From positions 46,817,327 through 46,881,326 of the forward strand of contig CM049308.1 of the NCBI GenBank assembly GCA_026874595.1: 64,000 bases of DNA, read 5' to 3'. Under the pieces are notes generated by a model. That model saw only the letters and a list, made by a program, of their open reading frames with translations, did no database searches and was not told the origin of the DNA. This DNA is from Sipunculus nudus. Its lineage: Eukaryota; Annelida; Sipuncula; Golfingiida; Sipunculidae. The translations under genes and the position numbers were made by a program. Below, in pieces: positions 1 through 64,000 of the stretch. Position 1 is the first letter of the stretch. Each line of letters opens with the position of its first letter.

Positions 1-1459
1 GGATTATGTTCGGGTCACATGTGAACTGCTGCGCCCCGATTTTGTTTTGACCTCTGACCTTTCCTTTGCGCTCTGCGTCCGTTTGTGCGTCTGTTTCCAC
101 ACATAAACCCACATATCTCGGGAACCGTTTGACCGATCAGGAAAATTTTTTTGCACAAATGTAGCCCTCGGAGAGCTTTATTACATACACCAAAAATGGT
201 GGCGCCACCTGCAACCATGTTTGCACAGTGTCCATCTGTTCGTCTGCCTTGGGTTAAAATCACTCATATCTCTGCAGTGACTTGACTAATTCACCTGAAA
301 TTGGGCATGCGTAAACATCCTGGATAGCTTTTCTGATTTTATGACAGGTGGCGCCACCTACATTCACGTTTACGCTGCAGACATCCAAGCTCATATCTTG
401 GGAACCGTTTGACCGATCAGGAAAATTCTTTTGCACAAATGTAGCCCTTGGACAGCTTTATAACATACACCAAAAATGGTGGCGCCACCTGCAACCATGT
501 TTGCACAGTGTCCATCTGTTCGTCTGCCTTGGGTTAAAATCACTCATATCTCTGCAGTGACTTGACTAATTCACCTGAAATTGGGCATGCGTATACATCC
601 TGGATAGCTTTTCTGATTTTATGACAGGTGGCGCCACCTACATTCACGTTTACGCTGCAGACATCAAAAGTCATATCTCAGGAACCGTTTGACCGATCAG
701 GAAAATTCTTTTGCACAAATGTAGCCCTTGGAGAGCTTTATAACATACACCAAAAATGGTGGCGCTACCTGCAACCATGTTTGCACAGTGTCCATCTGTT
801 TGTCTGCCTTGGGTTAAAATCACTCATATCTCTGCAGTGACTTGACTAATTCACCTGAAATTTAGCATGCGTATACATCCTGGATAGCTTTTCTGATTTT
901 ATGACAGGTGGCGCCACCTACATTCACGTTTACGCTGCAGACATCCAAGCTCATATCTCAGGAACTGTTGACCGATCAGGAAAATTTTTTTGCACAAATG
1001 TAGCCCTTGGAGAGCTTTATAACATACACCGAAAATGGTGGCACCACCTGCAACCATGTTTGCACAGTGTCTGTTCGTCTGCCTTGGGTTAAAATCACTC
1101 ATATTTCTGCAGTGGTTTGACTAATTCACCTGAAATTTGGCATGCTTATACATCCTGGATAGCTTTTCTGATTTTATGACAGGTGGCGCCACCTACAATC
1201 AAGTTTACGCTGCGACATCCAAGCTCATATCTAGGGAACCGTTTGACCGATTGGGCCAAAATTTTGCATGTGTATAAATCTCACATAGCTCTTTATCATA
1301 CGCAAAACTGGTGGCGCCACCTGCAGCCATGTTTGCACAGCTCCCATCTGTTTGTCTGCCATGGGATAAAATATCCATGCTAATATGCAACACTTCACCC
1401 GTTCCACTCTGATTTAGGCGGATACAAGTAGTCGCTTGTCGACTACCCGTATTCTAGTT
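1..1459 (+). mobile_element. H1 element, 3' part (Helitron2/HINE-like), with 280-bp tandem core
   Basis: The left end lies outside the window; the 3' end is CTAG at 1454-1457 followed by TT. Just before it are the subterminal inverted motif GGCGGATACA and the hairpin GTAGTCG-CTTGT-CGACTAC. The core repeats with starts at 341, 621, 901 and 1176, that is periods of 280, 280 and 275 bp. Each unit carries two GGTGGCGCCACC palindromes (one may be decayed) and the phrase GAACCGTTTGACCGATCAGG. The left part matches the complete H1 copy at 60751-61933. Several 60-100 aa ORFs here are chance ORFs in the repeat. Confidence 0.75.
346..359. promoter_or_regulatory. First of at least 17 GGTGGCGCCACC palindromes
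   Basis: AGGTGGCGCCACCT is a perfect 14-bp palindrome. Other perfect 12-14 bp copies start at 478, 626, 906, 1181, 1310, 1662, 2581, 5919, 16045, 20259, 44814, 48001, 59751, 61345, 61493, 61623 and 63962. They occur in H1, H2, H4 and H5-variant elements. One-base decays such as GGTGGTGCCACC and GGTGGCACCACC, at the central CpG, are common. The function is not known; see findings for the CTCF-like reading. Confidence 0.6.
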
Positions 1460-2310
1460 TGAGTATAAATTCAGTCAAGTCATTTTCAAGATGGTGTCTC
1501 TACGTAACTTCAGATTCTGTTGATCGCAAAATATGACAGCTTGATGTGTTTCTATACATGATGTATTGTCTGTTACCAAATATCTTAGGAACTGTTGCAG
1601 CCTTCAGTTTCAAATTTCACAGGAATATTGATCATGTGACTGCTAAATGATTTTGACCTCCAGGTGGCGCCACCTTTGTTGACCTACTTTCTGCGGGAAG
1701 AAATAATCTTTTCCACTTCTTTCAAGATAAGTCACAAAATATTAATAATTTGGCCTTCATATCATAGTCAGAAGTTCCTAAGAGGAAGGGGAATAATTTG
1801 TGTGTAAATTCAGTCAAATCATTTTCAAGATGGCATCTCTTCAGTACTTCAAATTGTGTGGGTTGCAAAATTTAGCAACTTGGTGTGTTTCCATAAAGGA
1901 TGTATTGTCTGTTACCAAATATTTTAGGAACTGCTGCAGCCTTCAGTTTCAAATTTCACAGGAATATTGATCATGTGACTTCCAGATGATTTTGACCTCC
2001 AGGTGGCGCCAGCTATGTTGACCTACTTTCTGTGGGACAAAATGTTACTTTCCACTTCTTTCAAGATAAGTCATAAAGTAATAAGAGGAAGAGTATAAAT
2101 TCAGTCAAGTGATTTTCAAGATGGCAAATCTACGGATGTTGATGTGTTTCTATACATGATGTATTGTCTGTTACCAAATATCTTAGGAACTGCTGCAGCC
2201 TTCAGTTTCAAATTACACAGGAATATTGATCATGTGACTGCTTAATGATTTTGACCTCCAGGTGGTGCCACCTGTTTAGCTACTTTCAGCAGGCTGTAAT
2301 GGTGTTTTCT
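1460..2310. repeat. Three diverged tandem units of about 260-340 bp
   Basis: The phrase GAATATTGATCATGTGACT recurs at about 1623, 1962 and 2221, each time within a longer homologous unit containing AGTATAAATTCAGTCAAGT-like and CTGTTACCAAATAT sequences. Each unit has GGTGGCGCCACCT or a decayed version after TTTTGACCTCC. No terminal structure was identified. It abuts the H1 3' end. Confidence 0.7.
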
Positions 2311-3002
2311 GCTTTTATCCAAAATATGTCATTAAGTATTTATTTGTTATAATCCACAAAAACAGAGTCTCCTCTAGGACCCTTGGACTGATCTTTCCAA
2401 AACCTGGCATACTTGTTCCCTCACCTATGAAGTTGTAGGTAACAATGATGGAGAACCTTTCTGTGCAGTACAAACCTGGGTTTCTTTTATATAACAACCC
2501 TCAATCTCAGGAGTGGTTCAATGTATTGATCTGAAATTTGTCATGTCTATCCATCTAGGAAAATTTTTCGTTAACCAGACAGGTGGCGCCACCTACAATA
2601 CTTTTTGCGGAGTGTCCAACTTTGCATTTGCCATTTGATTGTCTTAGTGTTTGTTCAGTGTATTGGGTTGAAATTGTGCATGTCCATAGATCTTCGTCAC
2701 CCCCATCTTGTAAACAAGACTGGTGGCGCCATCTGCAATAATTTTCCTGTGGTGTCCATTCATACATTTGCTTTCGGTGAAAATTGCTCATATCTCAGGA
2801 GTATTGGTCTGAAATTTGGCATGTGCAGTCATCTTGGAAAGTTTTCTCATAAACCAGATAGGTGGCACCACCTACCTTGTGCAATAGGACAGTGTCCACT
2901 TGGAAAGAAATGAATGGTATTTTCACATTCATTTTATTTTAATCACTTGCCAAATTGCACAGTAATTCACAGAGTGAACATTAGACCCCTGGGTCTCTTG
3001 TT
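2311..3002. repeat. Diverged units of about 145 bp bearing the GGTGGCGCCACC palindrome
   Basis: Related segments start near 2506, 2640 and 2790. Each has a GGAGTGGTTCAATG-like phrase, a CTGAAATTTGGCATG-like phrase, an ACAAGACTGGTGGCGCC-like phrase, and a TTTGC.GTGTCC stretch. This is the same vocabulary as the H1 core but more diverged. No gene is evident. Confidence 0.5.
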
Positions 3003-3003
3003 T

Positions 3004-4664: not shown

Positions 4665-7600
4665 ACTAGTTAGACATTGGTTTCAAACTTAATTATATAT
4701 TTATATATTACTTTATTAACCACTAAAGTAAGAACCCTGTCGATTTTAGGATCCAAAGGTCAAGGTCACAGGACCCATTTCTTTAAATGGGATGTGTATG
4801 CATTTTCAAGCCAAACTTTTCGTCACAAACCTTCCATCTTCAAGATATTACTCACCTTGCAAATAGGGGAAGATTCTTTTCAAATTGGGGTCATAGGGTC
4901 AAGGGTCAAGATCACAGGGCCCATCCATTAACAAACTAGTTTATGGATGATAATTCTGCTTTGGCTAGACAGATTGGCTTCAAACTTGATTTATTAATGA
5001 CCCACCACTTAAGTAAGAAACATTTTAATATTTCAGGGCCCAGAGGTCAAAGATGAAGGTCACAGGAGCCATATCTTTAAAATGATTGCGGATGCAATGT
5101 AAATCAAACTTTTCATCCCAAACTATTTAGCTTTTACACATGGCTTACTTGCCCAAAGTGGAAGAAATATGTAGATTTTTAGGTTATCTGGTCAGAGGTC
5201 AAGGTCACCTGACCCGCATTTTTAGTTAAGCTGACTATAAGTCATCTGAGCTATAGTCGTGGTCCTTTGTCCGTAGGTTGTCCGTCTGTCCGTTTGTTAA
5301 ACTGGCACATTTTGAAACCTTTGGACCTATGAATCTGAAATTCAGCAGCATACCTTTAGATGTCCCCAAAATCTCCTACCATACCGAAAATTGGGTCACT
5401 AGGACTTTGTTCCTTCGAATTATTAAGGAAAAACCTCCCTTTTTAGCGAACCTGTGAGCTTATGCGATGGTGTGGCGTCGTCCAGCGTCCGTCAGCCGTC
5501 GTCCGGGTCTGTACGTTAACCCATACTATCTTGAAAATGGCAAGAGTGAGCATCAAGAAATTTTCTGCAAAAAATTATTCATCTAAAAAACTCTATCGGA
5601 TTTTGCTTATATTTTGGCTAACTGCATTTTCTTAGATTTTATAGAGAAAAAGCTAAAAAAAACTTTGAAAATCTTCTTCTCCGAAACTGTTCAGCAAAAT
5701 TGTCCAATATTTCACAGAAATGATCCCTGGAACAATCTCTCTCAAGTTTGTTCGAATGGAATAAGTTCGGTGATTTTTGGCCGAGTTACAGCTAGTTGAA
5801 CTTAGTCATCTGTCCAAAAAAGTTTACTAAAATTACAATCTTAGAAACGGCTGGAGCTGTCATCACGAAATTTTATGCCAATGTTGGTCACATGAGTCAT
5901 GTCTGAAATTCAGGTATTGGTGGCGCCACCTGCATCGGCCTTTTTTGAACTGGGGTCATCAGTGCCCGTATCATACTGACAGCTACAAAAAACTTCTTCT
6001 CTGAAACCATTTGGCCAATTTGTTTAATATCGCACAGAAATGATCCTAAGGTAGTGCTTTCTGAAGTATGTTCAAATGGTCTCAGTTCAGTGACTTTTGG
6101 CTGAGTTATTGGAAGCTGAATTTAGTCATATGCCATAACAGCCCATTTTAGCTCAGCTGCTACAAAGATCTTCTTCTCAAAAACCACTGGGCCAAATTCT
6201 TAAATCTCACACATTATATATTCTTAGATGTTGATAATTCAAGTTTTTTCAAATGGTTTTGGTTCAGAGATATTTGGCTGAGTTATTCGAAGCTTAACAT
6301 AGCCATTTTGCTTTATTTTCCCATATGAGTTATAAACCTGCAAAACGTTTTTTGACTGACGCCACTGAGGCCAATTTGTTTAATATTTTACAAGAATAAT
6401 CCCCTGAATAATTCTTATAATAATTGTCTTTTGTGGTTCCAAAGAATGAATTTTGGCTGAATGATAAAGATTGAATTGAGTCATTTTACCATATATGTTA
6501 GCTGTGTGAAGCAGATACATCTAGCCTGGAACCAGTTTATCAGCATCCGTTACATCATGCCTCCAGACATTTAGATTTCAGGTTATCTTTGGTTAATATT
6601 GACAAGAATGTTTTTTAAAAATTTTAAAAAAATGTAGATTTATGATTTTAGATATTCCTCATGCCAGGTAATGTTTACAATCACAGGAATAAGTTAACCC
6701 ATACTATTTCGAAAACAACTAGAGCTAAAATCATGAAATTTAATGCAAAAAAATTAGCCATCTGAAAAAATCTGCATTTTCTTAGATTTTATAGAGAAAA
6801 AGCTAAAATACCTCTAAATATACTCTGAAACAGTCAAGCCAATTTGTTCAATATTTCACAGAAATAATCTTTATACCATCTCTCTCAAGTTTGTTCAAAT
6901 GGTTCAAGTTCTGTGAATTTTGGCCGAATTACAGGAAGTTAAACCTAGTCATCTGTCCAAAAAAGATTACTAAAATGACAATCTCAGAAACGGCCAGAGC
7001 TATCATCACTAAATTTTATGCCAGTGTTGGTCACATGAGTCATATATGAAATTCAGGTATTGGTGGCACCACCTGCCTTGACCTTTTTTTGTACAGGGGT
7101 CATTGGTCATCTGTATATCAACCCATAATTTCTCAGGAATTGCAGGAGCTACCATCCCCAGATTTTATGCAGTTATCTGTCATTTACTTAGATTTTATAG
7201 GGGAAAAGCTGAAAAACCTTTAATCTTCCTTTAAGCGGTCCAGCCAAATTGTTCAATATTTTACAGAAATGATACCAGAGGCAAGCACTCTCAAGTTTGT
7301 TCAAATAGTTTGCATTTAATGAATTTTAGTGGAGTTAAATGAATTTGAACGGTCATTTGGCCAAGTGAGCATACTGACATAGTTATCTCAGAATTGACAG
7401 AAGCTAGCATTACCAAGTATTGTGCAAATGTTGGTCACATGACTCATATTTGAAGTTGCAGATTTTGATGTGCCACCTACATTGACCTGTTTTTTATGGG
7501 CAAAAACCTCATAATTTTAGCCTCTTTCAGCTTAAAATGTTTATGATGAAACTGTCAAGTTGAATCGTTCATTTTTTCAAAAGAATTATCCTAGGACATG

Positions 7601-8047
7601 GTTCTTTCAATCATATCAGAAAAACTTAAGTTAGTCTTATGGCCATTATTATGTCTAACTGAGGACTGCAAAACTGTTCTTCTACAAAATTATTGTTTCA
7701 ATTATAACTTCTGTGACATTGAACAAAAATTATTCTTAGGTGGCCTTTGTTCAAGTTTACTTGAATGATTTTTGGCAGAATTATTTGACCTTTAACAATG
7801 AAAGAACTGAATCTTTTATTTTTCTAGATATTTTGATAAAAAGTTTATGAATATTTCAGCTTGAAAGAAAGCATTTTAGCCAAAGTCTTTCAGTATGTGT
7901 GATTTGCCATCAGGCCAAGATTGTGTCTGTATATTTACATAGGTTGAGAAACTGCCAACTGTTTCAGATTTGGCAATAGATCAAGAGTTCATTCAGTGCA
8001 GCCAGATATAGGTCAAGAGTTCAATCAGTGCAGCCAAGCACAAGGCA

Positions 8048-8125
8048 TGTGATCACCTCATGGGTGACATGTGAACACCTCATGGGCACCATGTGATCAC
8101 CTCATGGGTGTCATGCCCCTCAGGG
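8048..8125. repeat. Short tandem repeat around CACCTCATGGG
   Basis: CACCTCATGGGTGACATGTG is repeated about three times at roughly 25-30 bp spacing with base changes. The same block lies at 47129-47195 in copy B, so it is part of the H4 composite. Confidence 0.7.
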
Positions 8126-8733
8126 CTGCATGTGGAGCCAATCTATTTATAGCTTCGTCAGACTGCCAACTGTATCAGATTAAGCAACAGGTCAAGAGTT
8201 CACTCAGTACAGCCAGGTACAGGTCAAAAGTTCACCCAGTCTAGCCAGGTGCAGGTCATGAGTTCACTCAGTGCAGTAGCCTGAGCTAGCAAATTTGTCA
8301 CAGTTCACTCGGGGCAACTGCCTTTTTCACCTGAGCGTAGTCAGCCCCATGCATCAGACTTAAGGTAAGTTTGATGTATTTGCCTAATATTTTGACCTGT
8401 CTATGTGTCTTTGATGGATTTCTCGTTCACAAGACAGGTGTCACCACCTACAATGACATTTGCACAGTGTGTGACTTTTGTGCCTGCTTATTTCTATAGA
8501 GGAATTTGATATAGCATCCCGAAATTGGGCATATTTATACCTATCGTATTTTAATTATTGTATACTTGTCGTATACAAGACTGGTGGTGCCACCTACAAT
8601 AATTTTTTGCACAGTGTGTGTCCCTGCTTATTTCTCAGGAGGGGTTTGATATATCAGTCTGAACTTGGGCATATGTATATATCTCTGTAACCTTTTGTAT
8701 ACAAGACTGGTGGTACCAGCCACAATTATTTTT

Positions 8734-9940
8734 AGCTCAGCTGACTGTAAGTCAACTGAGGTATAGGAATGGCACTTTGTCCTTCGTCCGTCTGGACGAC
8801 CAGCCGTCCGTTAGCAAGGCATAAATCATAACAGCTGGTCCTAGAAACTTTTAAGTGAACATCCAGGGAAGTCAATTAAAAATTTCCTTGGAATCCTGAA
8901 ATTAGGTCACTGCGACCTTTTTCCTTCAAGCTATGGGGCTTGAAAGTACCCCCAAGAATAGTAAAAAATTTGATACAAAACCTCCAATATCTTGATAATT
9001 AAAGCATGGTTTGTCATGAATTTTGCCTTGATTATTGACCATGACTAGTTTTGTAAGTTCCTGAAATGTGGTGGTTTTCCTATTTTAACAAATATTTTTT
9101 TATTAATTTACCATAAAATGACAGCAATCATGTCGGTTTCTCAGCTGTCATTACATCTGGTGTCCCAAAACCTGGTGTGTTTATTGATCACAAGTGGATG
9201 CCCTATACTAATCACCCTGTCTGTCAGTCTGTCTGTTTGAACGTCTGTCTGTCAATCCGTCCATCCACACAAATTAGTTTCCAGATGTTAAGTCCAGTTA
9301 AGTTTGATATATTGGTTTCAAACTTAACTTATAAATGGCCCACCACTAAGGAATGTGTATGCATTTGAAGCCAAACTTTTCATCGCAAACCTTCCATCTT
9401 CATGATATTGCTAACCTGCCACTAGGGGAAGATTCTGTTTGATTTTTTGGGTCATAGGTCAAAGGTCAAGGTCACAGGCCCATCCATTCCCAAATTAGTT
9501 TATGGATGATAATTCTGCTTTGGATAGACAGACTGGCTTCAAACTTGATTTAATAATGACCAACCACATATGTAAATTCATTTTGATTTTCAGGGTCCAG
9601 CGATCTAAGTTGAAGGTCACAGAAGCCACATCTTTGAAAAGATTGTGGATGCACTGTAAATCAAACTTTTCATCCTGAACTTTTCAACGTTCACACATGG
9701 CTTACTTGCCCAAAGTGAGGAAACCTGTAGAATTTGAGGTTATCTGGTAAGAGGTCAAGGTCACTTTTTAAAAGATTGTTACAATAATCCTAATGCTGCA
9801 AGTTCAAGGATATTAAGTTCTAAGATTTTTTGGTTACAAGGTCATTGGTTAAGGTCACAGGACTGTCATTCTGTAAATTTCTTTCAAAATATCCTTATAG
9901 ACTAATTCAACAGAGTGTTGAGACCCATGGGTCCCTAGTT
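8734..9940 (+). mobile_element. H5-variant element inside H4 copy A
   Basis: It begins AGCTCAGCTGACTGTAAGTC after a T-run and ends with the palindrome GACCCATGGGTC and CTAG-TT (9935-9940). Internally, from about 9190, it resembles the H7 type (GATGCCCTAT, CTGTCYGTC, then GGTCAAGGTCACAGG phrases), so it looks like a mosaic of two families. The tail of the H4 element resumes at 9941 with GTGTTGTGTGC. The counterpart in copy B is 47672-49229. Confidence 0.6.
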
Positions 9941-12900
9941 GTGTTGTGTGCACCCATGCCAGAATTTCAGCAGTGATGTTTGTGTTATTTTTTCTTATTC
10001 AAAATGTTTAGTACCTGCATTGTTCATATATTTATGAGAAGTCATGGTCCAGCATTGAAGCATTATACCTGGTGTATTTCCCAATGCACAGGTTCGCATT
10101 AGGCCTGTAAGCCTTGTTCATTAAAAAACAATTGTTACACTTCAAGACTGCCTAATATCAAAACCACTTACCTGATATTGATCATTTTTTATATATTCAT
10201 TCCTCTATATATTTCCGATGTACATACCAGAAATTAGTTAAATATTTTTCAAATTCTTGAAATAATGGGCCCGAACATAATGCACTCTGTAAAAATTCAG
10301 GAAATATATTTACTCCCTTAACTTGAGAATTGCTGAAGCTAGAAACTTTTTTTTTCAGGTATACAACTATATTTAATCAAGATTTAATTGTATACCCAAA
10401 ATTAGATCTGAATTTTTCTAATTTTGTAAGTTTTTAGCATAAATATAAAATCAGTTCCTTAAATATTGCCAAGATTTGACCATGGCACATTTTTTTCCTG
10501 TAACTGCTGTGGATTTAAGTTTCACAGCATGTTACCATAAGCATTTCATCAGTTAACATCTGAAATTTGAAACCAATTGATCAAAAACTGTAGATTTTAT
10601 TCAGGTTTTCAAGCACATGTAAAATATTGTTTAGATCAAGCAAGTGTTATGCAGTTTGCTAGAGCTCAGCTCCCCAGCATCCCAGGCCAGCTCTCAGCTC
10701 CCAAAATTTGGCATCCAGTTAGATGTCCTCCAAACCCCCTACCATACCAAAAGTTTGGTCATTAGAACTTCATTCCTTTGAGATATTAAGAAAAAACTTC
10801 AGTTTTCAATTAAAAACCCATTGTTACACTTCAAGACTGCCTAATATCAAAACCACTGATCTGACTTTGATCATATCTAATATACATTTTCTTCTATTCA
10901 TACTCTATGCACATGCTAGAAATGATGTCAGTATTGTGAAATTGTTTTAGGTAATGGGCTCAAACATAATGCACTTTGTAAAAAATCAAGAAATATATTA
11001 ACTCCCTTAACATGAGAATTGCTGAAGCTAGAAGTTTTTTTGTCATGAATATAACATTATTTAAATCAAGATTCAATTGTATACCAAAAATTAGTTCTGA
11101 ATTTTTCAAATTTTACAAGTTATTAAAATAAATATAAAATCTGTACCTAAAAAGTTTTGCCTAACTTTGACCATGGCATGTTTGTTTTCTGTAAGGACTG
11201 TTGATATAACCTTCATATCATGCAGAATAAGGATATCTGCTTGTTGGTTTTGAAAGTTGAAAGAAATTTGCCAAAAACTGTAGCTTTTATTATAGTTTTT
11301 ATGAAACAATGTCAGACCCTAGGCTCTACCCAGTCCCTCTTCAGTCACCTGTATGTCCTCTAGTTGACCTCTCAGGTCAATTGTGCACGCTTGAGCAGGG
11401 CATATACAGGCCATAGCTTATGGCTGGCCTCAGTTGATTCAGGTGTCCAACCCAACTCATCTATTAGTTGTTTAGACCAACAGCATGACAATAAACAATT
11501 AATAAATAAATTATTATAGGTCTATAATAACAACTTTAAAAAAATCAGTAGAAAGGGAATTTGATAGTTGATGAGTAACAGGGAATTACCTTGCAATTAC
11601 TGATGTTTTATGGATTTTGTATGGATGGATGAAAATGTATTCCAAATAACACCATTAAGTCACCTATGGTGTTTTTCTTTTCAATCTTAATAATAAAAAA
11701 AAATAATTAAATTATATTGTTCTATACTATTACGGATAATATGAAGAAAATTAATGATAGACAAAGATGCAGTAGATAATATTAATCTAAATTTCATGGT
11801 CTTTTCCAAGTGTTTCAGCTTTTTAATTTATATTCATTTCAAAATTTTTAAAAAATTTAAATATGTCAAAATTTTTTAAATTTACTCAGACAAGTACTGA
11901 ATAAAGATGTCAATATGTTTCACTAATGACATTAAGACACATGACTGTAACAGCTGTCACAAGACTATGTAAATAATCACAATTTATATTACTGGTTCCC
12001 ATATATTTCAGTTAATAAAATTTAACTTGCTCATCTCTAGTTTTCTCCTTGTATAATTTATAGGGTGTTCTTATCCATGGATTATTTTTTACCCATATAA
12101 TGGTTTCATAGCTGAGATTACTTCAATTTATTTTCTGATACATTTTTTTTAAATAAAAAATTTGAATATGATAAAAAATCAGCTCTTAGACAAGTTCTCA
12201 TTATGATTTCTGTAATGTTAATAATTGTCATAAGACTCTTGCTATGTCTAGTGTGTAGATTGATGTTAAGATAGTCCAAAGTGAATAAATTAGTTTTATT
12301 TTTTTAATATAAATAAAATTCCTTAAACCAAGTACTTATGATCATTATTTGAATTTGTGATATTTGTTATTTTGGATTCTCAAGAACTTTTGTGTTGCTG
12401 AAACTGAATAAATACCAGACATGATGAAGTACTTTGCAAATGTATTTGAATGCAAATATGAATATGTACTCCATAATTTCATGCATAAGGATTGGAATAC
12501 AGGTTAAAATGAAAGTATTTGAATTAAAATGCATTCATGAATATATTCTATAATATTATTTTAATAAATATTTATTTCCATAATATTATTAAAAAATCTT
12601 TGATGAAAAAAAACATGATACTGTTATTATATTAAATTTTAAATTATATTTGACAAAATATTTATTATTAATTTTTAATAAATAGTTTAACTTTTCAAAT
12701 AATTCTGCTGCAATGTAGGTTAAGATTATGGCCAAGTCAAAACCTGTGTGATAATAGCACACCATTTCCAACTGTAAATAATATAAATGACATCAATCCT
12801 CTTCCCTGTCTCAAAGGGTATTATCAAAATCTTACATAACTTGAGTTAAACACTGTCAGCTCATAATAGAGCCTAAATTACCACGCAAAACCAGCCTTTG

Positions 12901-13139
12901 CCTACCTCCTCTCCCAAATCATATTTTGTAATCATATATAACAGCTGAGCGCCGTGACCCATGGGTCCCTTGTTTAGAATATTGTTATAATAATCTAAAT
13001 GCTGCAAGTTCAAGGATAATATTTTTTGGTCACAAGGGCATTGGTAAAGGTCACAGGACCATCATTCTGAAAAATTTCTTGACAAATATTCTTATAGACA
13101 AATACAACTGAGCGTCAAGACCCCACTGGGTCACTAGTT

Positions 13140-15122: not shown

Positions 15123-15709
15123 AGCAAACCTGTGAGCTTATGCGATGTTGCAGCGTCATCCGTCGTGCGGTGTGCATCCTGCGTCGTCTGAACGTTAACC
15201 ATAGCTATCTCAAAAATGGCAGGAGCTAGCATCACCAAAATTTTTTTGCAAATAATCAAGTCATCTGAAAAACTCTATCAGATCTTGTTTATTTTTTTCT
15301 AACTGCATTTTCTGATATTTTACCAGGGAAAATGCCAAAAAAGCTTTAAAAATCTTCTTCTCCTAAACTGTCTAGCCAAAATGTCCAATATTTCACAGAA
15401 ATGATCCCTGGAACAATCTTTCTCAAGATTGTTCGAATGGTTCCAGTTCAGAGATTTTTTGCCGAGTTTCAGGAGGTTGAACTTAATCATCTGTCCAAAA
15501 AAGCACACTAAAATTAAAATCTCAGAAACGGCTAGAGCTATCATCACCAAATTTGATGCCAATGTTTGTCACATATGTCATATCTGAAATTGAGGTATTG
15601 GTGGAGCCACCTACATTGATCTGTTTTTTACAAGCAAAAATGTTATTTTAGACTCTTCTAGCTTATACACTGTTTTATGTTGATTCGTTTAAACTTTGCA
15701 AGAATTATT

Positions 15710-18700
15710 GTATCCCCAGACAATCGACAATAAGTCGGGGGATACTATGTTTTCATGACAGTCCGGCTGCCGTGGCTGCATATAAATCTTGTTGGCGCGA
15801 TAACTCAAAAAAATATTTCACAGATCTTTACCAAACTTGGTATATGTATAGATATAGGTGAGAGGACTACGCCTGTTTAAAATGAGGTCATGACCTTTAC
15901 TAGGATAGTGTCCTTGACCTTGAATAGGTCCAGTTTTGGGGAAAATCACACAAATTCTTGAATATCTAAAGAAATCTTGCATGGATTGATCCCAAAATCA
16001 AGTTGATCTAAGATCATGGATAGGGTTGTCATGTTCCAGAAACTGGTGGCGCCACCTATTATTCTTTACTTGTTCGTGCCTTTTAATACCCCCAAACTTG
16101 CCACTTGACAGTACTGTGAGCATTATAAGTAAAAAACTAATCCACAGATTTCTTTTATATTATGCATATACATAGATATGGGTTATGGGATGAAGTTTAT
16201 TAGCTCAGCTGACTATAAGTCATCTGAGCTATAGTCGTGGTCCATTGTCCGTCGTCCGTCCGTCTGTCCGTCCGTCCGTCCGTAGATGTGGCACGTTTTG
16301 AAACCGTAAGACCTAGGATTCCAAAATTCGGCATAATGTTAGATATGAAATGTGATGTGTGATAGATATGTGAAAAAAAAGTTCGTTAGCAAAACACGTT
16401 TTTTTATAATAGAGTTTTTAGCTCAGCTGACTATAAGTCGTCTGAGCTATAGTCGTGGTCCATTGTCCGTCGTCCGTCCATCCGTCCGTCCGTAGATGTG
16501 GCACGATTTGAAACTGTAAGACCTAGGAATCCGAAATTCGGCATAATGTTAGATGTCCCCAAGATCTCCTACCAAGCCGAAAACTGGGTCTTTGCGACTT
16601 CGTTCCTTTGAGAAATTAAGGAAAAACCTCAATTTTTTATTAAAAACCTATTTTCACACTTCAGGACTGCCTTATATCAAAACCACTCATCTGTTTTACC
16701 TCATATTTACCATAAATATTCCTCTATATAGTTCCTATGTACATGCCAGAAATTATGTCTGTATTATTTAATTTAAATAGTTATGGGCCCAAACATAATG
16801 CATTTTGTAAAAAATCAGAAAAGATATTTGATCACTTAACACAAAAAATGTTAATGCTATGGACCTTTTTTCCAGTAATATAACTTTAATTAATCAAAAT
16901 TAAATTGTATACCCAAAATTAGATGAAAATCTTTTAAATTTTTTAAAATATTAATAAAAATAAAAAATTGGTACCTTAAATTTTGCCCAACTTTGACCAT
17001 GGCACGTTTTTTTCCTGTAAGTACTGTGGATTTAATTTTCACAGCATGTTTTTGTTAGCATTTCAACTGTTAACACCAAAAATTTGAAACCAGTTGATCA
17101 AAAACTGTAGATTTTAATCAAGTTTTCAAGCACCATGTAACATATTGTTTACATCAAGCTAGTGTTATGCAGTTTGCAAGAGCTCAGCTCCCCAGCTTCA
17201 GCTCTAAGTTCCTTAAATTCGGCATACAGTTAGATGTCTCCAAAATGCCCTACCATGCCAAGAATTTGGTCACTAGGACTCAATACCTTCGAGATATTAA
17301 TGAAAAACTTCATTTTTCCATTAAAAACCCATTGTTACCCTTCAAGACTGCCTAATATCAAAACCACTGATCTGACTTTAATCATAAATAATATACATAT
17401 TTTTCATTCTCTATGCACATGCCAGAATGATGTCAGTATTGCGTAATTGTTTTAAGTTATGGGCCCAAACATAATGCACTTTGTAAAAAATCAAGAAATA
17501 TATTTACTCCCTTAACAAGAGCATTGCTGAAGCTAGAGATTTTTTGTCAGGGATGTAACATTATTTAATCAAGATTCAATTGAATACCCAAAATTAGTTC
17601 TGAATTTTTCAAATTTTATTTAGTATAAAAATAAAATTAGTACCTTAAATTTTGCCCAACTGTGACCATGGTACGTTTGTTTCCCGTAAGCACTGTTGAT
17701 ATAATTTTCATATCATGCACACATAAGCATTTCAGCTTTTTAGTTTAGAAAGCTGAAAGAAATTGGCCAAAAATTGTAGCTTTTATTAATGTTTTTTATG
17801 AGACCCTGTCAGACTTTGGCTCTCTCCAGCCCCTCTTGAGTCACATGTATGTTGACCTTGTTGACCTTTCATCAAATTATGCACGCTTGAGGCGAGGCAT
17901 ACATGGAATCCAGGCAGCTTATGGCATGCCACAGTTGATCCAGGTGTCCAACCCAACTCATCTAGTAGTTTTAACCAACAACATAACAATAAACAATAAA
18001 TTAATAAATTTTTATTGGTTTTTAATAACAAATTAAAGAAAAATAGAAAAGGAATTTGTTAGTTTATAATAACAGGAAATTAACTTGCAGTTACTGATGA
18101 TATAAGAATTTTGTATAGATGGGTAGAATGTCACATATTCCAAATAACACCATGCAGTCACCTATGGCATTTTTCAGTTCAATTTTAATGATAAAGAAGT
18201 AAATCATATTATTCATTACTAATCATTAGGGATCATATGAAGGAAATTAGACAAAGATGCAGTTGATAATATTAATCTAGATTCCTGCTGTGTCTAGTGT
18301 GTACATTGATGTGAAATTAGTCCAAAATGAATTTTTTACAGTTATTTTTAATATAAATAAAAGCCATAAAACCAGGTACTTATGATCTTTATTTAAATGT
18401 GTGAATTTTGTATATTCTGGATTCTCAACATCATTGTTTGGTGAAAACTGAATAAATTCCAGACATGGTGCAAATACTTTGTAATTGTATTTAAATATGA
18501 ATATGATTTTGTACTCCATTATAAAATTTCTTGCATAAAGAATGGGAATTCAGGTAAAAATGAAAATATATGAATACTCGTGCAAATACTTTCAAAATGT
18601 ATTCATGAATGCATTCATGAATATATTCTTTAATATTATTTTAATAATCATATCAGTTATATTTCATTTTAAAAAATCATATGATTCTCTTATTATTTTT

Positions 18701-21484: not shown

Positions 21485-21811
21485 CTTTGGTAGGGTTCTG
21501 CCAGTTTTATAAAAATATATTGGGTAAATGCAGCTTTAAAAAAGCAGTGTTACCAATTGAAAAAAGGCTTTCTGTGTTAGAAAACAGATTTGACAACATG
21601 CTGAGTTTCAGCAGCCAAGTCAAGAGGTCACTCAGTACAACCAGGTGGGGTCCAGAAATCACCATGGCAACTGACCTGGCTCTCTTTGGTGTCTAGACAC
21701 ATTCTAGACACAGTGTCTAGACGTCTAGAAACAGTGTCTAGATGCAGAATTCCCAGATTATTGGAACTATATTGGAACAACTGTTTGAAAAAACTTGATT
21801 TGCATTTTTAG

Positions 21812-27130: not shown

Positions 27131-27204
27131 TCGCTTAGTGTTGCCTTCGCAAGCGTACAGCGAATCAAGTTCACACGGTTGAGGATGAACCTGCACTGTT
27201 TGTC

Positions 27205-27408: not shown

Positions 27409-27409
27409 T

Positions 27410-40312: not shown

Positions 40313-40315
40313 TTT

Positions 40316-42029: not shown

Positions 42030-42215
42030 GTGTTGTGTGCACCCATGCTAGAATTTCAGCAGTGATGTTTGTTTGTTTCTTGTTCTGAGTGGTTAGTACT
42101 TGTATTATTCATATACATGTTTCACATGTTCTTGAAAAGTAATGGTCCAGCATTGAAGCATTATACCTGGTGTTATCTCATTGCACAGGTTCGCATTAGG
42201 CCTGTAGGCCTTTTT

Positions 42216-46888: not shown

Positions 46889-47671
46889 TATTAATCTAGA
46901 TATTTTGATTAAAAAGTTTATGAATATTTCAGCTAGAAAAAAAGCATTTTAGCCAAAGTCTTTCAGTATGTGTAAACAGATTTGCCAACAGGCCAAGATT
47001 GTGTCTGTATATTTAAATAGGTTAAGAAACTGCCAACTGTTTCAGATTTGACAATAGACAAAGAGTTCATTCAGTGCCGCCAGATATAGGTCAAGAGTTT
47101 GGTCAGTGCAGCCAAGCACAAGGCATGTGATCCCCTCATGGGTGACATGTGAACACCTATGGGCACCATGTGATCACCTCATGGGTGTCATGCCACTCAG
47201 GGCTAAATGTGGAGCCAATCTATTTATAGCTTTGGCAGACTGCCAACTGTATCTGATTAGGCAACAGGCTAAGAGTTCACTCAGTGCAGCCAGGTACAGG
47301 TCAAAAGTTCACCTAGTCTAGACAGGTGCAGGTTATGAGTTCACTCAGTGCAGTAGCCTGAGCCATCAAATTTGTCACAGTTCACTCGGGGCAACTACCT
47401 TTCTCACCTAAGCCTGGTCAGCCCCATGCATCAGACTCAAGGGTAGTTTGATGTATTGACCTGATATTATGACCTGTCTATGTGTCTTTGATGGCTTTCT
47501 CGTTCACAAGACAGGTGTAACCACCTACAATGACTTTTGCATACCGATGTGCCTGCTTATTTCTATAGAGGAATTAAACATATCATCCTGAAATTGGGCA
47601 TATTTATACCTATCGAGTAGTTTTGTCGTATACAAGACTGGTGGTGCCAGCTACAATCATTTTTAACTCAG

Positions 47672-49229
47672 CTGACTGTAAGTCAACTGAGGTGTAGGAA
47701 TGGCACCTGTCCATCCGGACGTCCGGGCGTCCGGCAGTCCGTTAGCAGGGCACAAATCCTAACAGCTGGTCCTGGAAACATCTAAGTTAAGATCCAGGGA
47801 GGTCAATAAAAAATCCAATCAGAAACCTGACATTAGGTCACTGCGACCTATATCCTTCGAACTATGGAGCTTGAAAGTACCCCTCAGAATAGTAAAAAAT
47901 TTGATACGAAACCTCCAATATCTTGATAATTAATGCATGGTTTGTCATAAATCTTGCCTTGATTATTGACCATGACTAGTTTTGTCAGTTCCTGAAACGT
48001 GGTGGCGCCACCTGTATTTTTCCTATTTTAACGAATATTTTTCTAATTATTTACTATAAAATGACAATAATCATGTCAGTTTCTCAGCTGTGTTTACGCC
48101 TGGTGTCCCAAAACCTGGTCTGTTTATTGATCACAAGTGGATGCCCTATCACCCTGTCTATCTGTCTGTTTGTATGTCTGTCTGTCTGTCAATCCGTCCA
48201 TCCACACAAATTTCCAGATGATAACTACAGGTTGGATTGGCACATGGATTTCAAACTTGACTTACACATGGCCCACCACTAAAGCAAGAACCTGTATGAT
48301 TTTAGGGTCGTGAGGTCAATGGTCAAGGTCACAGGACTCACTTAATTAAAAAGATTATGGCTGCATTTTAAGCCAAGCTTTTCATCCCAAACTTTCCATC
48401 TTGCGCATATAGCTGACTCGCCAGTATGGGGAGAGCATAAATTAATTTGGGGTCACAAGGTCAAAAGTCAAGGTCACAGGGGCCATCTGTTCACAAAATA
48501 GTTTCCAGATGATAACTCCAGTTCAGTTTGACATATTGGTTTCAATCTTAACTTATAGATGGCCAACCACTAAAGTAAGAACCATGTCAATTTTTGGGTC
48601 CAAAGGTCAAAGGTCAAGGTCACAGGACCCATTTCTTTAAAAGAAATGTGTATGCATTTGAAGCCAAACTTTTCATCGCAAACCTTCCATCTTCAAGATA
48701 TTGCTAACCTGCCTCAAGGGGAAGATTCTGTTTGATTTTTGGGTCATAGGTCAAGGTCACAGGGCCCATCCATTCACAAATTAGTTTATGGTGATTATTC
48801 TAATTTGGATAGACAGACTGGTTTCAAACTTGATTTAATATTGACCGACTACTTAAGTTAATTCGTTTTGATTTTTCAGGGTCCAGCGATCTAAGTTAAA
48901 GGTCACAGAAGCGACATCTTTGAAAAGATTGTGGATGTGCTGTAAATCAAACTTTTCATCCTGAACTTTCCAACATTCACACATGGCTTACTTGCCCAAA
49001 GTGAGGAAACCTTTAGAATTTGAGGTTATCTGGTCAGAGGTCAAGGTCACTTTTTAAAAGATTGTTATAATAATCCTAATGCTGCAAGTTCAAGGATATT
49101 AAGTTCTAAGATTTATTGGTCACAAGGTCATTGGTTAAGGTCACAGGACTGTCATTCTGAAATAAATTTCTTTAAAAAGATCCTTATAGACAAATTCAGC
49201 TGAGCAATTAGACCCATGGGTCCCTAGTT
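47672..49229 (+). mobile_element. H5-variant element inside H4 copy B
   Basis: It starts AACTCAGCTGACTGTAAGTC and ends CAGCTGAGC, palindrome GACCCATGGGTC, CTAG-TT (49224-49229). Internally it switches at about 48140 to H7-type text (GATGCCCTAT, CTGTCTGTCTGTC, GATAACTMCAG) with GGTCAAGGTCACAGG phrases. It carries a perfect GGTGGCGCCACC at 48001-48012. Confidence 0.65.
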
Positions 49230-49405
49230 GTGTTGTGTGCACCCATGCTAGAATTTCAGCAGTGATGTTTGTGTAATTGTTTCTTATTCAAAATGTTTAG
49301 TACCTGCATTGTTCATATACATGAGAAGTAATGGTCAAGCATTGAAGCATTATACCTGGTGTATTTCCCAATGCACAGGTTCGCATTAGGCCTTTAAGCC
49401 TTGTT

Positions 49406-59419: not shown

Positions 59420-62231
59420 GTATCCCCAGACAAAGTCAGGGGATATTATGTTTTCATACCGGTCCCCCCGCCGCGGCCACCGCCGCATATAAATCTTGTT
59501 GGCGCGATAACTCAAAAAATATTTCACGGATCTTTACCAAACTTGGTATATCCATAGATATGGGTGAGAGGATGAAGCCTATTTAAAATGAGGTCATGAC
59601 CTTGACTTGGAGAGTGTCCTTGGCCTTGAATAGGTCCAATTTTGGGGAAAATCACACAAATTCTTAAATATCTCAAGAAATCTTGCATGGATTGATCCCA
59701 AAATCAAGTTGATGGAAGATCATGGATAGGGTTGTCATGTTCCAGAAACTGGTGGCGCCACCTATTATTCTTTACTTGTTTTTGTGCCGTTTAATACCCC
59801 CAAAATTGCTGCTTGACAGAACTGTGAGCATTTTAAGTCAAAAACTAATGGACAGATTTCTTTTATATTATGCTTATACATAGATCTATATGGGTTATGG
59901 GATGATGTTTATTTAAATTGGGGTCATGACCTTTCCTATGAGAGTGGCCTTGACCTTGAATATTGCCATATATGGTGAAAATCACACAAAATCATTTATA
60001 TCTCAATAAGGGATGCATGGATTGGTCCAAAAATCAACTTGACCGAAGATCTTGAATAGTAATGTCATGTACCGGAAACAGGTGGCACCACCTGTTATTA
60101 TTTTACTTGTTCTATGCCGTTTAATACCCCATCATTGCCACTTAACAGTACTGTGAGCATTATAAGTCAAAAACTAATGGACAGATTTCTTTCATATTGT
60201 GCATATACATAGACATGGGTTATGGGATGATGTATATGTAAATTGGGGTCATGACCTTTCCTATTAGAGTGGCCTTGCCCTTGAATATTGCCATATATGG
60301 TGAAAATCACACAAAATCATTAATATCTCAATAAGGGATGCATTGATTGGTCTAAAAATCAACTTGACCAAAGATCTTGGATAGTGTTGTCATGTACCGG
60401 AAACTGGTAGCGCCACTTGTTATTCTTTTACTTGTTTTCGTGCCGTTTAATACCCCATCATTGCCACTTAACAGTACTGTGAGCATTATAAGTCAAAAAC
60501 TAATGGACAGATTTCTTTCATATAATGCATAAACATAGATATGGGTTATGGGATGATGTTTATTTAAATTGGGGTCATGACCTTTCCTATGAGAGTGGCC
60601 TTGCCCTTGAATATTGCCATATATGGTGAAAATCACACAAAATCATTAATATCTCAATAAGGGATGCATTGATTGGTCCAAAAATCAACTTGACTGAAGA
60701 TCTCGGATAGTGTTGTCATGTACCAGAAACTTGTAGCGCCACCTGTTATTGTATCCGCCAAAACAGTTTTGCGGATACTATCTTTTCAGCTGCATGCTGC
60801 TGCCGTCGCCGCGGCATAGGTGTCTGGAGAACTCCTCCGTTACCACTGGGCAGAATTTTACGAAACCCAGGATTATGTTCGGGTCACATGTGAACTGCTG
60901 CGCCCCGATTTTGTTTTGACCTCTGACCTTTCCTCTGCGCTCTGCGTCCGTTTGTGCGTCTGTTTCCACACATAAACCCACATATCTCGGGAACCATTTG
61001 ACGGATCAGGAAAATTTTTTTGCACAAATGTAGCCCTTGGAGAGCTTTATAACATACACAAAAAATGGTGGTGCCACCTGCAACCATGTTTGCACAGTGT
61101 CCATCTGTTCGTCTGCCTTTGGTTAAAATCACTCATATCTCTGCAGTGATTTGACTAATTCACCTGAAATTCGGCATGCGTATACATCCTGGATAGCTTT
61201 TCTGATTTTATGACAGGTGGTGCCACCTACATTCACGTTTACGCTGCAGACATCCAAGCTCATATCTCGGGAACCGTTTGACCAATTGGACCAAAATTTT
61301 GCATGTGTATTGATCTCACATAGCTCTTTATCATATGCAAAACTGGTGGCGCCACCTGCAGCCATTTTTGCACAGCTCCCTTCTGTTTGTCTGCCATGGG
61401 ATAAAAGCTCTCATATCTCGGCAGTGGTTTGACATATCTGCCTAAAATTTTGCAGGTTTATACATCCCCGACAGCTCTCTTGATTTTATGACAGGTGGCG
61501 CCACCTGCATTCTAGTTTATGCAGCAGACATCCAAGTTCATATCTTGGGAACCGTTTGACCGATTGGGTCAATGTTTTGCATGTGTATAGTTCTCACATA
61601 GCTCTTTATCATACGCAAAACTGGTGGCGCCACCTTGAACCATTTTTGCACAGTGTCCATCTGTTTGTCTGCCACGGGCTAAAATCACTCATAAACATAT
61701 AGTGGTTTGACTTATCTGGCTCAAATTTTGCATATGTATACAACTTGGACGGCTTTCTGGATTTTGTGGTAGGTGGCGCAACCTACATACACCATTTGGC
61801 TGCAGACATCCATGCTAATATGCAACACTTCACTCTATTTCCCCTTGCCACTCAATCCATGCCTCACTTCACCCGTTCCACTCTGATTTAGGCGGATACA
61901 CGTAGTTGCTTGTCAACTACCCGTATTCTAGTTCTTTTACTTGTTTTCGTGCCGTATAATACCCCATCATTGCCACTTAACAGTACTGTGAGTAATATAA
62001 GTCAAAAACTAATGGACAGATTTCTTTCATATTATGCATATACATAAACATGGGTCAGGGGATGATGTATATTGAAATCGGGGTCATGACCTTTTCCATG
62101 AGAGTGACCTTTTATATCAGTGTGGTCTGATATTAATTGTTGCTGAAGATGGGGGGCCTATTCTTAAAGGGGGGGGGGGATTAATTGTCTGGGGATACTA
62201 TGGCACCTGCGGTGCAAAGAAATATCTAGTT
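59420..62231 (+). mobile_element. H2 element carrying a complete H1
   Basis: 5' hairpin GTATCCCC...GGGGATA at 59420; 3' GTCTGGGGATAC, hairpin GGCACC-TGC-GGTGC, CTAG-TT at 62226-62231. Core units are marked by TTAATACCCC at 59791, 60121 and 60447, and by the diverged ATAATACCCC at 61956 after the H1 insertion. Periods are 330, 326 and (after subtracting the 1,183-bp insertion) 326. A run of nine or ten G near 62169 precedes the 3' motif. It ends 31 bp before the second exon. Confidence 0.82.
60751..61933 (+). mobile_element. Complete H1 element (1,183 bp)
   Basis: 5' hairpin GTATCCGC-N12-GCGGATAC (60751-60778); 3' subterminal GGCGGATACA (61891-61900), hairpin GTAGTTG-CTTGT-CAACTAC (61902-61920), CTAG (61928-61931), TT. 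Inserted in an H2 core unit: left CTGTTATT, right CTTTTACTTG, which are contiguous at 60417-60432. The core is made of units of about 280 bp with GGTGGCGCCACC. ORFs of up to 82 codons are repeat artefacts. Confidence 0.88.
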
Positions 62232-62262
62232 ACATTTGTTTCACATTTTCTTCATATCTTAG

Positions 62263-62331
62263 GTGATGAACAGCTGAAGGTGATCAACATCACTCAGTTG
62301 GAGAGAGATAGCATTCTGGTTTGTTATGACA
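62263..62331 (+). CDS. MAP4K3/5-like: Next internal exon of the MAP4K3/MAP4K5-like kinase, CNH domain
   Basis: Seen: 69 bp between acceptor TTTTCTTCATATCTTAG and donor ACA|GTAAGT. The first two bases (GT) complete the G left by the 23361-23437 exon to give Gly. The frame then reads DEQLKVIN, ITQLERDSILVCYD and leaves one base (A). Family knowledge: TQLERDTVLVC, following SSWFTE by about 15 residues, is a characteristic stretch of MAP4K3/5 CNH domains, so order and spacing match the exon upstream. Inference: the two exons are consecutive and separated by a 38.8-kb intron full of transposable elements. An H2 element ends at 62231, only 31 bp before the exon, so the branch-point region is immediately next to transposon sequence. 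The next exon, expected to encode a KIVNLQG-like stretch, was not found before 64000. Confidence 0.85.
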
Positions 62332-62431
62332 GTAAGTAATTTTTATTTATTTACCAGCAGCAAATCAGTTTAAAGACTTGACACTGTTTCCACCAGTTCC
62401 ATCCCATGTGCAGTGAGTCTGCCTTGCTAGC

Positions 62432-64000
62432 TCAGCTGACTAGAAGTCATCTGAGCTATAGTCGTGGTCCTTTGTCTGTCAGCTGTCTGTCTGCCTGTCC
62501 ATTTAACTGGCACATCTTGAAACAATTGGACTTATGAATCTGAAATTCAGCATACAGTTAGATGTCCCAAAAATCTCCTACCCTTCGGGAGATTGGGTCA
62601 CTAGGACTTTGTTCCATCGAGATACAGTGAAACCTTGTTGTGAACTCGCTTAAGTGGAATACCCCGCTTATGTTGAAGTTACAGGCTCGATATTCTGGAC
62701 AACTCTAGTTAAATTATAACCATATAAATACCTCTTTTGTCGAACCTGGGATGTGTCCAAGTTTTCTTGGGGTCCCTCCGACTTCGGCACAACGAGGTTT
62801 CACTGTATTAAGGAAAAACCTATGTTTTCCATTAAAACCCCATTGTTACACTTCAGGACTGCCTAATTTCAAAATCACTGCTTTGAATTTGATCATATTT
62901 CATATGCATATTTGTCAATACATTATCTATGTACTTGCCAAATATTAGGTCAGTATTGCATTATTTGTTGAAGTTATGGGCCCGAACATAATGCACCTTG
63001 TGAAAAATCAGGAAAATTATTTACTCACTCAACATAAAATTGCTGAATCTAGAGACTTTTTTTCAGGGTTATAATTTCATTAAAACGAGAATCAATTGTA
63101 TACCAAAAATAGATCTAAATTTTTCAAATTTTAAAAGTTATTTGCATAAATGCAAACAGTAACTTAAATTTTGCCCAAGTTTGGCCTTGGCACGTTTTTC
63201 CCTGTAAGCACTGTTGATTTAATTGTATCCACCAAAATGATGTTTTGCAGATATTATGTTTTTGACCTGGTTCTGCCGCTGCATCGTTCGTTTCCAGAGA
63301 ACTCCTCTGAGACTACTGGACGGATTTTTCCCAAACTTACACCAATTATCGGGTCACATGTGAACTGGTGCCTAACCAATTTGCGTTGACCTCTGACCTT
63401 TTCTCTCTGCCCAGCGTCCATTTGTGCGTCTGTTTCCGTACATAAACCCACATATCTAGGAAACTGTTTGACTGATCAGGAAAAAAATTTGTACAAATGT
63501 AGCCCTTGGATAGTGTTATAACATACATAAAAAATGGTGATGCCACCTGCAACCATGTTTGCACAGTGTCCATCTGTTCATCTGCCTTGGGTTAAAATCA
63601 CTCATATCTCTGCAGTTGTTTGACTTGTTCACCTGAAATTCGGCATGCATATACATCCTGAATAGCTTTCTTGATTTTATGACAGATGGCACCACCTACA
63701 TTCATGTTCATGCTGCAGACATCCAAGCTCATATCTTGGGAACTGTTTGAACAATTGGGCTAAAATTTTGCATGTATTTTGATCTGACATAGCTCTTTAT
63801 CATACACAAAACTGGAGGGGCCACCTGCAACCATTTTTGCACAGCATCTATCTGTTTGTCTGATGTGGGCTAAAATCACTCATATCTCTGTAGTGATTTG
63901 ACATAACTGCTTAAAATTTTGCAGATTTATACATCCTGGATAGCTTTCTTGATTTTATGACAGGTGGCGCCACCTACATTCAGGTTTACGCTGCAGACAT
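62432..64000 (+). mobile_element. H5 element, 5' part, carrying H1
   Basis: AGCTCAGCTGACTAGAAGTC begins at about 62432, with the CTGAGCT arm shortly after. The body matches 16500-17050. It is interrupted at 63224 by H1. A segment at about 62620-62815 (AAACCTTGTTGTGAACTCGC to ACGAGGTTTCACTGTATTA) is absent from other H5 copies and has inverted GAAACCT/AGGTTTC edges, so it is probably a small separate insertion. The 3' end lies outside the window. Confidence 0.65.
63225..64000 (+). mobile_element. H1 element, 5' part
   Basis: GTATCCACCAAAATGATG starts after TTTAATT of the H5 host (TT site). The 280-bp core follows, with a perfect AGGTGGCGCCACCT at 63962-63975. It continues past the window edge. 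Confidence 0.72.

Follow-up and report, generated by a model that had tools for sequence, protein, structure and literature searches.

HINE-like repeat families with private end pairs and a common regional polarity in Sipunculus nudus

A 64,000-nt stretch of the Sipunculus nudus genome (contig CM049308.1, positions 46,817,327 to 46,881,326 of the forward strand; hereafter the window) holds nested repeat copies that differ in sequence yet share the arrangement of their ends. It raises the question of what kind of element they are, what could move them and why they lie in one orientation. Five families, H1–H5, had been named in an initial annotation; we rebuilt these from the window sequence and found a sixth, H6, by reading with the same layout in mind. 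With high confidence we assign H1–H6 to the HINEs, elements without coding capacity that Helentron-type rolling-circle (Rep-helicase) enzymes mobilise. They are new families of a kind already published. What is new here are polarity domains common to several families, which a specialist would not expect.

Paired ends, hairpins and insertion targets

H1–H5 share one layout, with a 5′ motif at the border beside TT, its inverse near the 3′ end, a CTAG or CTTG tetramer and again TT. The five 5′ motifs and their inverses were found at the places given in the initial annotation, and the 3′ copy starts 30–47 nt and stops 19–32 nt before the element end. The longest exact inverted match between the two ends measured 9 nt in H1, 14–15 nt in H2, 8 nt in H3, 11 nt in H4, 9 nt in H5 and 10 nt in H6. 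A subterminal inverted repeat (subTIR), with one copy at the 5′ border and its inverse inside the 3′ end, was thus present in all six families (8–15 nt exact). In a 6 × 6 matrix of 5′ against 3′ ends, matches on the diagonal reached 8–14 nt and those off the diagonal 3–6 nt; each 5′ end pairs with its own 3′ end only. Among 1000 random pairs, 1.8% reached 8 nt and 0.4% reached 9 nt. These family-private matched end pairs help to define the families, and would identify partners after end-to-end alignment with Helentrons.

The copies of a family are alike inside the proposed borders and divergent outside them, which indicates that the ends are real. Identities between copies inside and outside the 5′ border were.89 and.38 for H4,.93 and.30 for H5,.78 and.28 for H2, and.68 and.20 for H1; at the 3′ border they were.86 and.24 (H1),.77 and.26 (H2),.64 and.31 (H4), and.65 and.29 (H5). 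Over the 264 kb surrounding the window, profiles made from the window copies recognised 111 ends of the 5′ type and 92 of the 3′ type. The 5′ border was TT in 88 of 91 scored ends. The 3′ tetramer was CTTG in 61 and CTAG in 26 of 91 cases (other or none in 4), and the dinucleotide after the 3′ end was TT in 77 of 88. The family-wide ends held over the 264 kb, with no sign that the true ends lie elsewhere. An H5 motif match at 59154 proved to be part of a 55-bp satellite monomer and no element end, and a 5′ motif at 6150, without a hairpin, was left out of the counts.

Five nested insertions have an uninterrupted (empty) paralogue in the window. For H1 in H2, H5 in H2 and H2 in H4 the ambiguity of the insertion point is limited to TT; the H1-in-H2 insertion (60751..61931), for example, has paralogous empty sites at 60275–60572 and elsewhere. 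The targets are TT or T-runs without a longer target duplication, and a duplication of fixed length, as named in the initial annotation as an outcome typical of cut-and-paste transposons, was not seen at the empty sites, which leave only TT or a T-run. Since a 2-bp TT duplication is indistinguishable from insertion between T and T, and the 5′ hairpins look like foldback ends, the copies might also be foldback or cut-and-paste transposons with TT duplications. We consider this very improbable: the ends are asymmetric, with the 5′ motif at the border and the 3′ motif 30–47 nt inside and never terminal in the alignments, the 3′ ends carry CTAG or CTTG, and Helentron-type Rep genes are present in the genome.

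A 5′ hairpin of its own had been ascribed to H1, H2, H3 and H5, and folding supported this. Their 5′ ends beat 200, 200, 198 and 199 of 200 shuffles, respectively (z −6.6, −4.3, −3.3 and −3.7), whereas the H4 end folded no better than its shuffles (z +1.1). The H6 hairpin was strong in the copy at 24242 (z −5.5) and weak in that at 42549 (z −0.9). A palindromic 5′ subTIR or accompanying inverted repeat (IR) is thus carried by five of the six families (H1, H2, H3, H5 and H6), H4 being without it. The H1, H2, H3 and H5 folds are alike: a triloop tops a short apical stem, which a small internal loop or bulge separates from a basal stem of 7–8 bp. A scan for this shape (TT, a stem of at least 7 bp, small internal loop, 3–5-bp apical stem, triloop), devised after the four folds had been seen, gave seven matches in the window, all at H1, H2, H3 or H5 5′ ends and none on the minus strand, compared with a mean of 0.3 and a maximum of 3 in 60 third-order Markov sequences. 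Neither of the H6 5′ ends is picked up by the scan, nor are several copies of H1, H2 and H5 whose stems or loops are altered. TAT or ATAG lies within one base after the hairpin in all seven matches, and ATAG follows both H6 5′ ends. At the other terminus, the 3′ hairpins of H1, H2 and H3 folded better than shuffles (z −2.9, −2.6 and −3.5). A two-ended scan that included the 5′ IR gave four plus-strand matches, at H2 and H3 ends, and none on the minus strand (200 controls, mean 0.005, maximum 1). Without the IR it gave eight on the plus strand, several of them false ends, and again none on the minus strand (controls, mean 0.6, maximum 5). H1, H4 and most H5 ends fall short of its hairpin threshold.

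The families had also been called unrelated, which was correct for the 3′ ends, where all ten H1–H5 pairs are unrelated (z < 2), and overstated for some 5′ ends and cores. Among the 5′ ends, H1–H2 (z 8.3), H2–H3 (z 3.7), H4–H5 (z 4.3) and H3–H5 (z 4.9) are related, the last likeness lying in a GTCC microsatellite common to both. Related cores were found for H1–H2 (z 5.0) and H1–H4 (z 16.9); an H1–H5 relation (z 3.9) showed in one of the two H5 stretches compared. The palindrome GGTGGCGCCACC occurs in the window 19 times exactly and 48 times within two mismatches, in cores of families with different ends. In 33 anchor-box pairs (48 boxes) it follows [AG]TATCT at a distance of 81–85 nt, with none on the other strand, and this core rule is common to H1, H2 and the adjoining repeat at 1460–3005. 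The palindrome is perhaps a protein-binding site. A reading of it as a CTCF site was rejected, although in one paper a portion of the string occurs in a CTCF-site oligonucleotide.

Assignment to HINEs and candidate mobilising enzymes

No Rep motif and no Pif1-type Walker A were found in any of the six frames of the window, in agreement with the earlier statement that the elements carry no protein. In twelve copies the longest stop-free frame, of 136 aa, spans a microsatellite; the longest in H6 has about 105 aa. Pfam searches with ten window frames returned two matches, to a reverse transcriptase and an endonuclease, both in retroelements. In the genome, 143 Helitron_like_N matches passed the cut-off (150 of 195 candidates were scored, and one gene may yield several matches), and seven rows lie in open frames of >2200 aa, pointing to potentially active Helentrons; 14 control genomes gave no such match. 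Two Rep motifs, IEFQARGSPHAH and VEFQQRGSPHIH, have GSP residues, which are described as Helentron-specific (PMC4067079).

From the different motif/hairpin pairs it had been concluded that there must be at least one partner able to recognise several of them. This goes too far, as published HINEs have their own matching Helentrons: in mite, Culex and Drosophila, several HINEs match Helentrons of their own with 84–99.9%, >95% and 98% identity (PMC4067079). By analogy, one partner per family would be the simpler default. The partner of the oyster HINEs could not be linked (PMC7492417). In Helraiser, a canonical Helitron, an exchanged 3′ hairpin stem keeps ~90% of activity, so that differing hairpins need not mean differing enzymes, and CTTG was reported as an alternative end in constructs from which the hairpin or the entire right end was missing (PMC4778049). 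The proposed search for Rep-coding elements with the same ends succeeded as far as the Helitron_like_N matches themselves are concerned, and failed to pair them with the families at the loci sampled (see below). One such locus has an H5-type 3′ end ~1 kb past the frame and an H1 3′ end on its 5′ side. That H5-type end probably belongs to a separate HINE, because the 2 kb past the frame of a related locus hold no H5-type 3′ end.

In the mechanism that we infer, from enzyme and nick to circle and strand, a Helentron-type enzyme would nick at the TT beside the 5′ subTIR, which can fold into a hairpin in five of the six families, and would peel off one strand. It would stop at the 3′ end, marked by the inverted motif copy, by CTAG or CTTG and, in three families, by a clear small hairpin. 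The single strand, presumably passing through a circle, would then be inserted into a TT. If the target strand were chosen by a local chromosomal process, polarity domains such as those described below could follow from the same step. A canonical Helitron (5′ TC, 3′ CTRR, insertion between A and T, no subTIR) was ruled out by the subTIRs and the TT target. The 5′ ends here read GTATCC, ATGCC, AGC or AGGGC, and CTAG agrees with CTRR while CTTG does not.

Comparison with known systems is in line with the HINE assignment. The Cg_HINE elements of Crassostrea gigas, eleven in number and some without any common module, have a 5′ subTIR with a complementary IR, a GTCC-type microsatellite, central satellite-like repeats, a 3′ subTIR with a palindrome, and TT or T-rich targets without target duplication (PMC7492417). 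Their core periods are mostly 140–180 bp, compared with 145, 180, 278–280 and 326 bp here, and the likeness is one to published descriptions. By description, the bivalve pearl elements CvA, CvE and CvG, with short central-repeat arrays between HINE-like ends, are also similar (PMC7492417, PMC11136912). The HINE, Helentron and DINE-1 elements of mites, mosquitoes and flies share the subTIRs close to the 5′ border and within the 3′ end, the palindrome near the 3′ end, the TT target, optional tandem repeats and, in the genome, a Rep motif with GSP; the CTAG and CTTG ends seen here distinguish our families from them (PMC4067079). The Helitron2/FoHeli elements of Fusarium have asymmetric terminal inverted repeats, a 5′ hairpin and clustered copies, and some copies have two 5′ ends, put down to self-insertion, as at three loci here; unlike our families, they are coding elements with other termini and targets (PMC5148889).

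Several observations weigh against the assignment. The 3′ subTIR starts 30–47 nt inside the element and in H3–H6 only 30–32 nt, closer than the 38–60 bp of mite HINEs, and the subTIRs of H1, H3, H5 and H6 are shorter than the 11 bp used to define families in that work (PMC4067079). The 3′ hairpin, which had been claimed for H1–H5 and stood in H1–H3, was not clearly above shuffles in H4 (z −1.6 and −1.5 in two copies), H5 (−0.3 and +0.6) or H6 (−0.2), all three with stems of 4–5 bp. The H6 3′ end is CTAG followed by TA rather than TT, and one H5 5′ border in the window, at 62429, is CT. The empty sites of H4 in H5 and of H4 in H4 lie in T-runs, which makes the duplication length inexact. At three loci a single 3′ end goes with two 5′ ends (H5 at 16202/16420, H2 at 19933/21001 and H4 at 15123/21810), and some copies are therefore no simple elements; this is as expected if, in a nested pair, transposition from the outer 5′ end halts at whichever 3′ end comes first. 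Finally, an H1–H6 end pair flanked none of the three sampled Helitron_like_N loci on both sides. Apart from a convincing 3′ stem-loop in H4–H6 and TT past the 3′ end of H6, all features of Helentrons and HINEs that can be tested on non-coding copies were found. The initial annotation was largely right in what it observed and right in the class, and too strong on the unrelatedness of the families and on a shared enzyme.

An Rfam search with the sequence gave no match. Of the viral and prokaryotic collections, one returned six loci, five of them with 60–72% GC and none showing CTAG and TT after the H3 hairpin; the others returned none. A literature search for the terminal strings brought up no recognisable transposon or bivalve paper among the matches listed.

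Regional polarity of the copies

Orientation was examined in the 264-kb block around the window, at the start of one contig, C1, and at a few small loci. In the window, every recognised HINE end lies on the plus strand. In the 264 kb, after removal of minus-strand H5 echoes overlapping a better plus match, 110 of 111 5′ ends and 91 of 92 3′ ends did so. When ends with a late profile start or a cut flank were dropped (111 to 97), the 97 ends with usable flank formed 60 clusters of distinct flank, of which 59 were plus and 1 minus. Such blocks could grow by nesting, with a resident element steering later copies into itself in its own orientation; about 78–81% of the 264 kb is self-similar repeat, and eight nested or abutting pairs in the window all agree in orientation. 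Yet nesting cannot be the whole explanation of the polarity, for ends with unique flanks are also mostly plus (12/13 at the 5′ and 16/17 at the 3′ side; one H1 copy is the exception). H5 neighbours 20–100 kb apart on C1 agree as well (29/34 listed pairs, though other repeats may intervene), and we regard nesting as an unlikely cause. An asymmetry of T-runs was also rejected, the 264 kb holding 1205 T-runs and 1181 A-runs of at least 5.

Genome-wide, the strands of the scored 5′-end places are balanced, with 3341/3322 for H1 (a count that reads a few palindromic hairpins twice), 10031/10243 for H5 and 2793/2663 for H4. This agrees with the oyster, in which Cg_HINE insertions of both orientations are stated to occur; the parts of that paper covered make no mention of regional polarity (PMC7492417).

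The analysis of C1 used listed copies, namely 98 H1 (two second readings of palindromic hairpins were dropped from 100), 100 H5 and the 34 of 100 listed H4 lying below 14.2 Mb. The first 57 listed copies of the three families, from 96 kb to 1.146 Mb (~1.05 Mb), are all minus, after which plus and minus domains common to the three families alternate. In the merged set below 7.42 Mb, where the H5 list ends, 141 of 164 neighbours agree in strand, compared with a mean of 92.7 and a maximum of 114 in shuffles. Agreement between copies of different families decays with distance: 28/28 pairs agree at <10 kb, 89/95 at 10–30 kb, 163/202 at 30–100 kb, 359/475 at 100–300 kb, 969/1512 at 0.3–1 Mb and 1682/3163 (53%) at 1–3 Mb. 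Ends of H1, H3, H4 or H5 were likewise all minus at eight small loci at 157–670 kb of C1 and at one at 1.07 Mb, while two loci in its switch region (L039 and L040) contained no HINE ends. A control repeat with 497 + 461 places had neighbours within 100 kb on the same strand in 1 of 5 listed pairs, compared with 68 of 77 for H5 (Fisher p 0.002, with too few control pairs for a firm comparison). Two two-copy repeats of the 264 kb that are unlike HINEs, one of them this control repeat, each occur in opposite orientations; a long terminal repeat (LTR) control pattern had 8 copies.

The domains are not free of exceptions. On C1, listed H4–H1 pairs at 30–100 kb agree in only 23 of 43 cases and H1 neighbours 50–100 kb apart in 10 of 25, single copies interrupt several domains, some domains span only ~15–60 kb, and beyond 6.4 Mb they are short. 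Within the 264-kb block, one H1 copy and, near 20.6 kb, a core-like fragment lie on the minus strand. A search of the literature by titles and abstract starts, which was not exhaustive and missed most subscription papers, found no report of orientation domains.

Since the polarity is common to families with different ends, the strand would seem to be set by the target chromosome rather than by the element. One candidate, which we put forward tentatively, is the direction of germ-line replication forks: the element would enter single-stranded DNA at forks, for example on the lagging-strand template, and its orientation would flip at origins and termination zones. Fork direction could yield domains of such size with sharp flips. 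The one-strand bias of the 264-kb block and of its flank clusters, the genome-wide balance, the 57-copy run on C1 and the decaying cross-family agreement fit this, and in bacteria the orientation of IS200/IS605 tracks replication direction (PMC5371812), which offers an analogy. The short or single-copy domains, particularly beyond 6.4 Mb, and the poor agreement of H4–H1 pairs and distant H1 neighbours speak against it.

Polarity might instead follow transcription, through entry into the displaced strand of genes or through selection that removes one intronic orientation, a reading to which we give a comparably cautious place. The window lies in introns of a plus-strand MAP4K-like gene, and the elements lie there in sense. 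Exon-like stretches were found on the plus strand at ~3190–3290, 23362–23438 and 62262–62330, with the elements between them. Joined, these gave a CNH domain with E 2.9e-5 and 24.5 bits, below the Pfam cut-off of 26, and MAP4K1 as their sole PDB match (E 6.3e-7). A plus-strand frame 94 kb upstream may, judging from its sequence, be a further exon of this gene. In contrast, the 1.05-Mb stretch of one polarity on C1 would call for a single huge gene or for a succession of genes that share a strand.

To our knowledge, how Helitron-class elements find their target strand is an open question. The more specific idea that HINE orientation is a fossil record of fork direction, left by Helentron intermediates integrating strand-specifically at forks, is rather doubtful. 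If it were true, tens of thousands of copies would mark germ-line replication direction across an animal genome, as a eukaryotic counterpart of IS200/IS605. Strand choice is testable with existing methods, by comparing replication and gene-strand maps with the places of the H1, H5 and H4 5′ ends.

Copies and further features of the window

The copies recognised in the window are listed in Table 1.

Table 1. HINE copies and core boxes in the window
Feature	Position	Strand	Details
H1, complete, in H2	60751..61931	+	5′ GTATCCGCC hairpin, ~278-bp core repeats, 3′ GGCGGATAC, hairpin, CTAG then TT
H1, 3′ part	1..1457	+	5′ end ~155 nt upstream of window start
H1 in H4	39561..40310	+	target is H4's own CTAG then TT, judged against H4 copy at 22100
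H1, 5′-truncated, in H4	46287..46714	+	
H1, 5′ part	63225..64000	+	
H2 with nested H1	59420..62229	+	5′ GTATCCCCAGACAA, ~326-bp core repeats, 3′ CTAG then TT
H2a with nested H5, itself in H4	15710..19930	+	
H2b	19933..21482	+	adjoins H2a, one TT common; second 5′ end 21001, single 3′ end
H3	40316..42027	+	5′ ATGCCCCC hairpin, 180-bp core repeats, 3′ GGGGGCAT, hairpin, CTAG then TT; adjoins H1
H4, nested in H5	5445..10116	+	5′ AGCGAACCTGTG, 3′ CACAGGTTCGC..CTTG then TT
H4 composite with nested H2	15123..22275	+	5′ ends 15123 and 21810, single 3′ end
H4 fragment set, split by H1 and H3	39245..42212	+	CTTG tetramer lost at 3′ end
H4	44356..49403	+	nested: H4 45584–46886 (empty paralogue near 7815), H5-type copy 47665–49227
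H5 with nested H4	5224..12972	+	
H5 in H2	16202..19018	+	5′ ends 16202 and 16420, single 3′ end CTTG then TT
H5, complete	28099..30703	+	5′ AGCTCAGCTG hairpin, GTCC microsatellite, 3′ CAGCTGAGC..CTTG then TT
H5, 5′ part	62429..63222	+	border CT in place of TT
H6	24242..25914	+	5′ AGGGCCCCGC hairpin, GTCC microsatellite, 3′ GCGGGGCCCT..CTAG then TA
H6, second 5′ end	42549..43310	+	ahead of 145-bp tandem array; no 3′ end seen
GGTGGCGCCACC box stretches	1–2900, 5919, 8437–8583, 15600–16045, 39727–40157, 44814–48001, 59751–61772, 63536–63963		

Two H5-type 3′ ends lie 165 nt apart at 12972–13137, the second resembling the tail of the copy at 8734–9938; read-through to a downstream terminator is a possible explanation. 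Another H5-type 3′ end (49776) adjoins a satellite of 55-bp units that extends over 9.4 kb (49772–59178) and includes a block in opposite orientation at ~50600–51160. An LTR-type retroelement at 25978–38793, gypsy-like by eye, contains a plus-strand reverse-transcriptase frame and a pair of similar stretches of ~190 bp. An H5 copy interrupts it, as does a non-LTR element on the minus strand with endonuclease and reverse transcriptase (34117–36647). Just downstream of an exon, a 34-bp tandem array of 38 copies occupies 3366–4661, and its minus strand is open from stop to stop for 483 codons.

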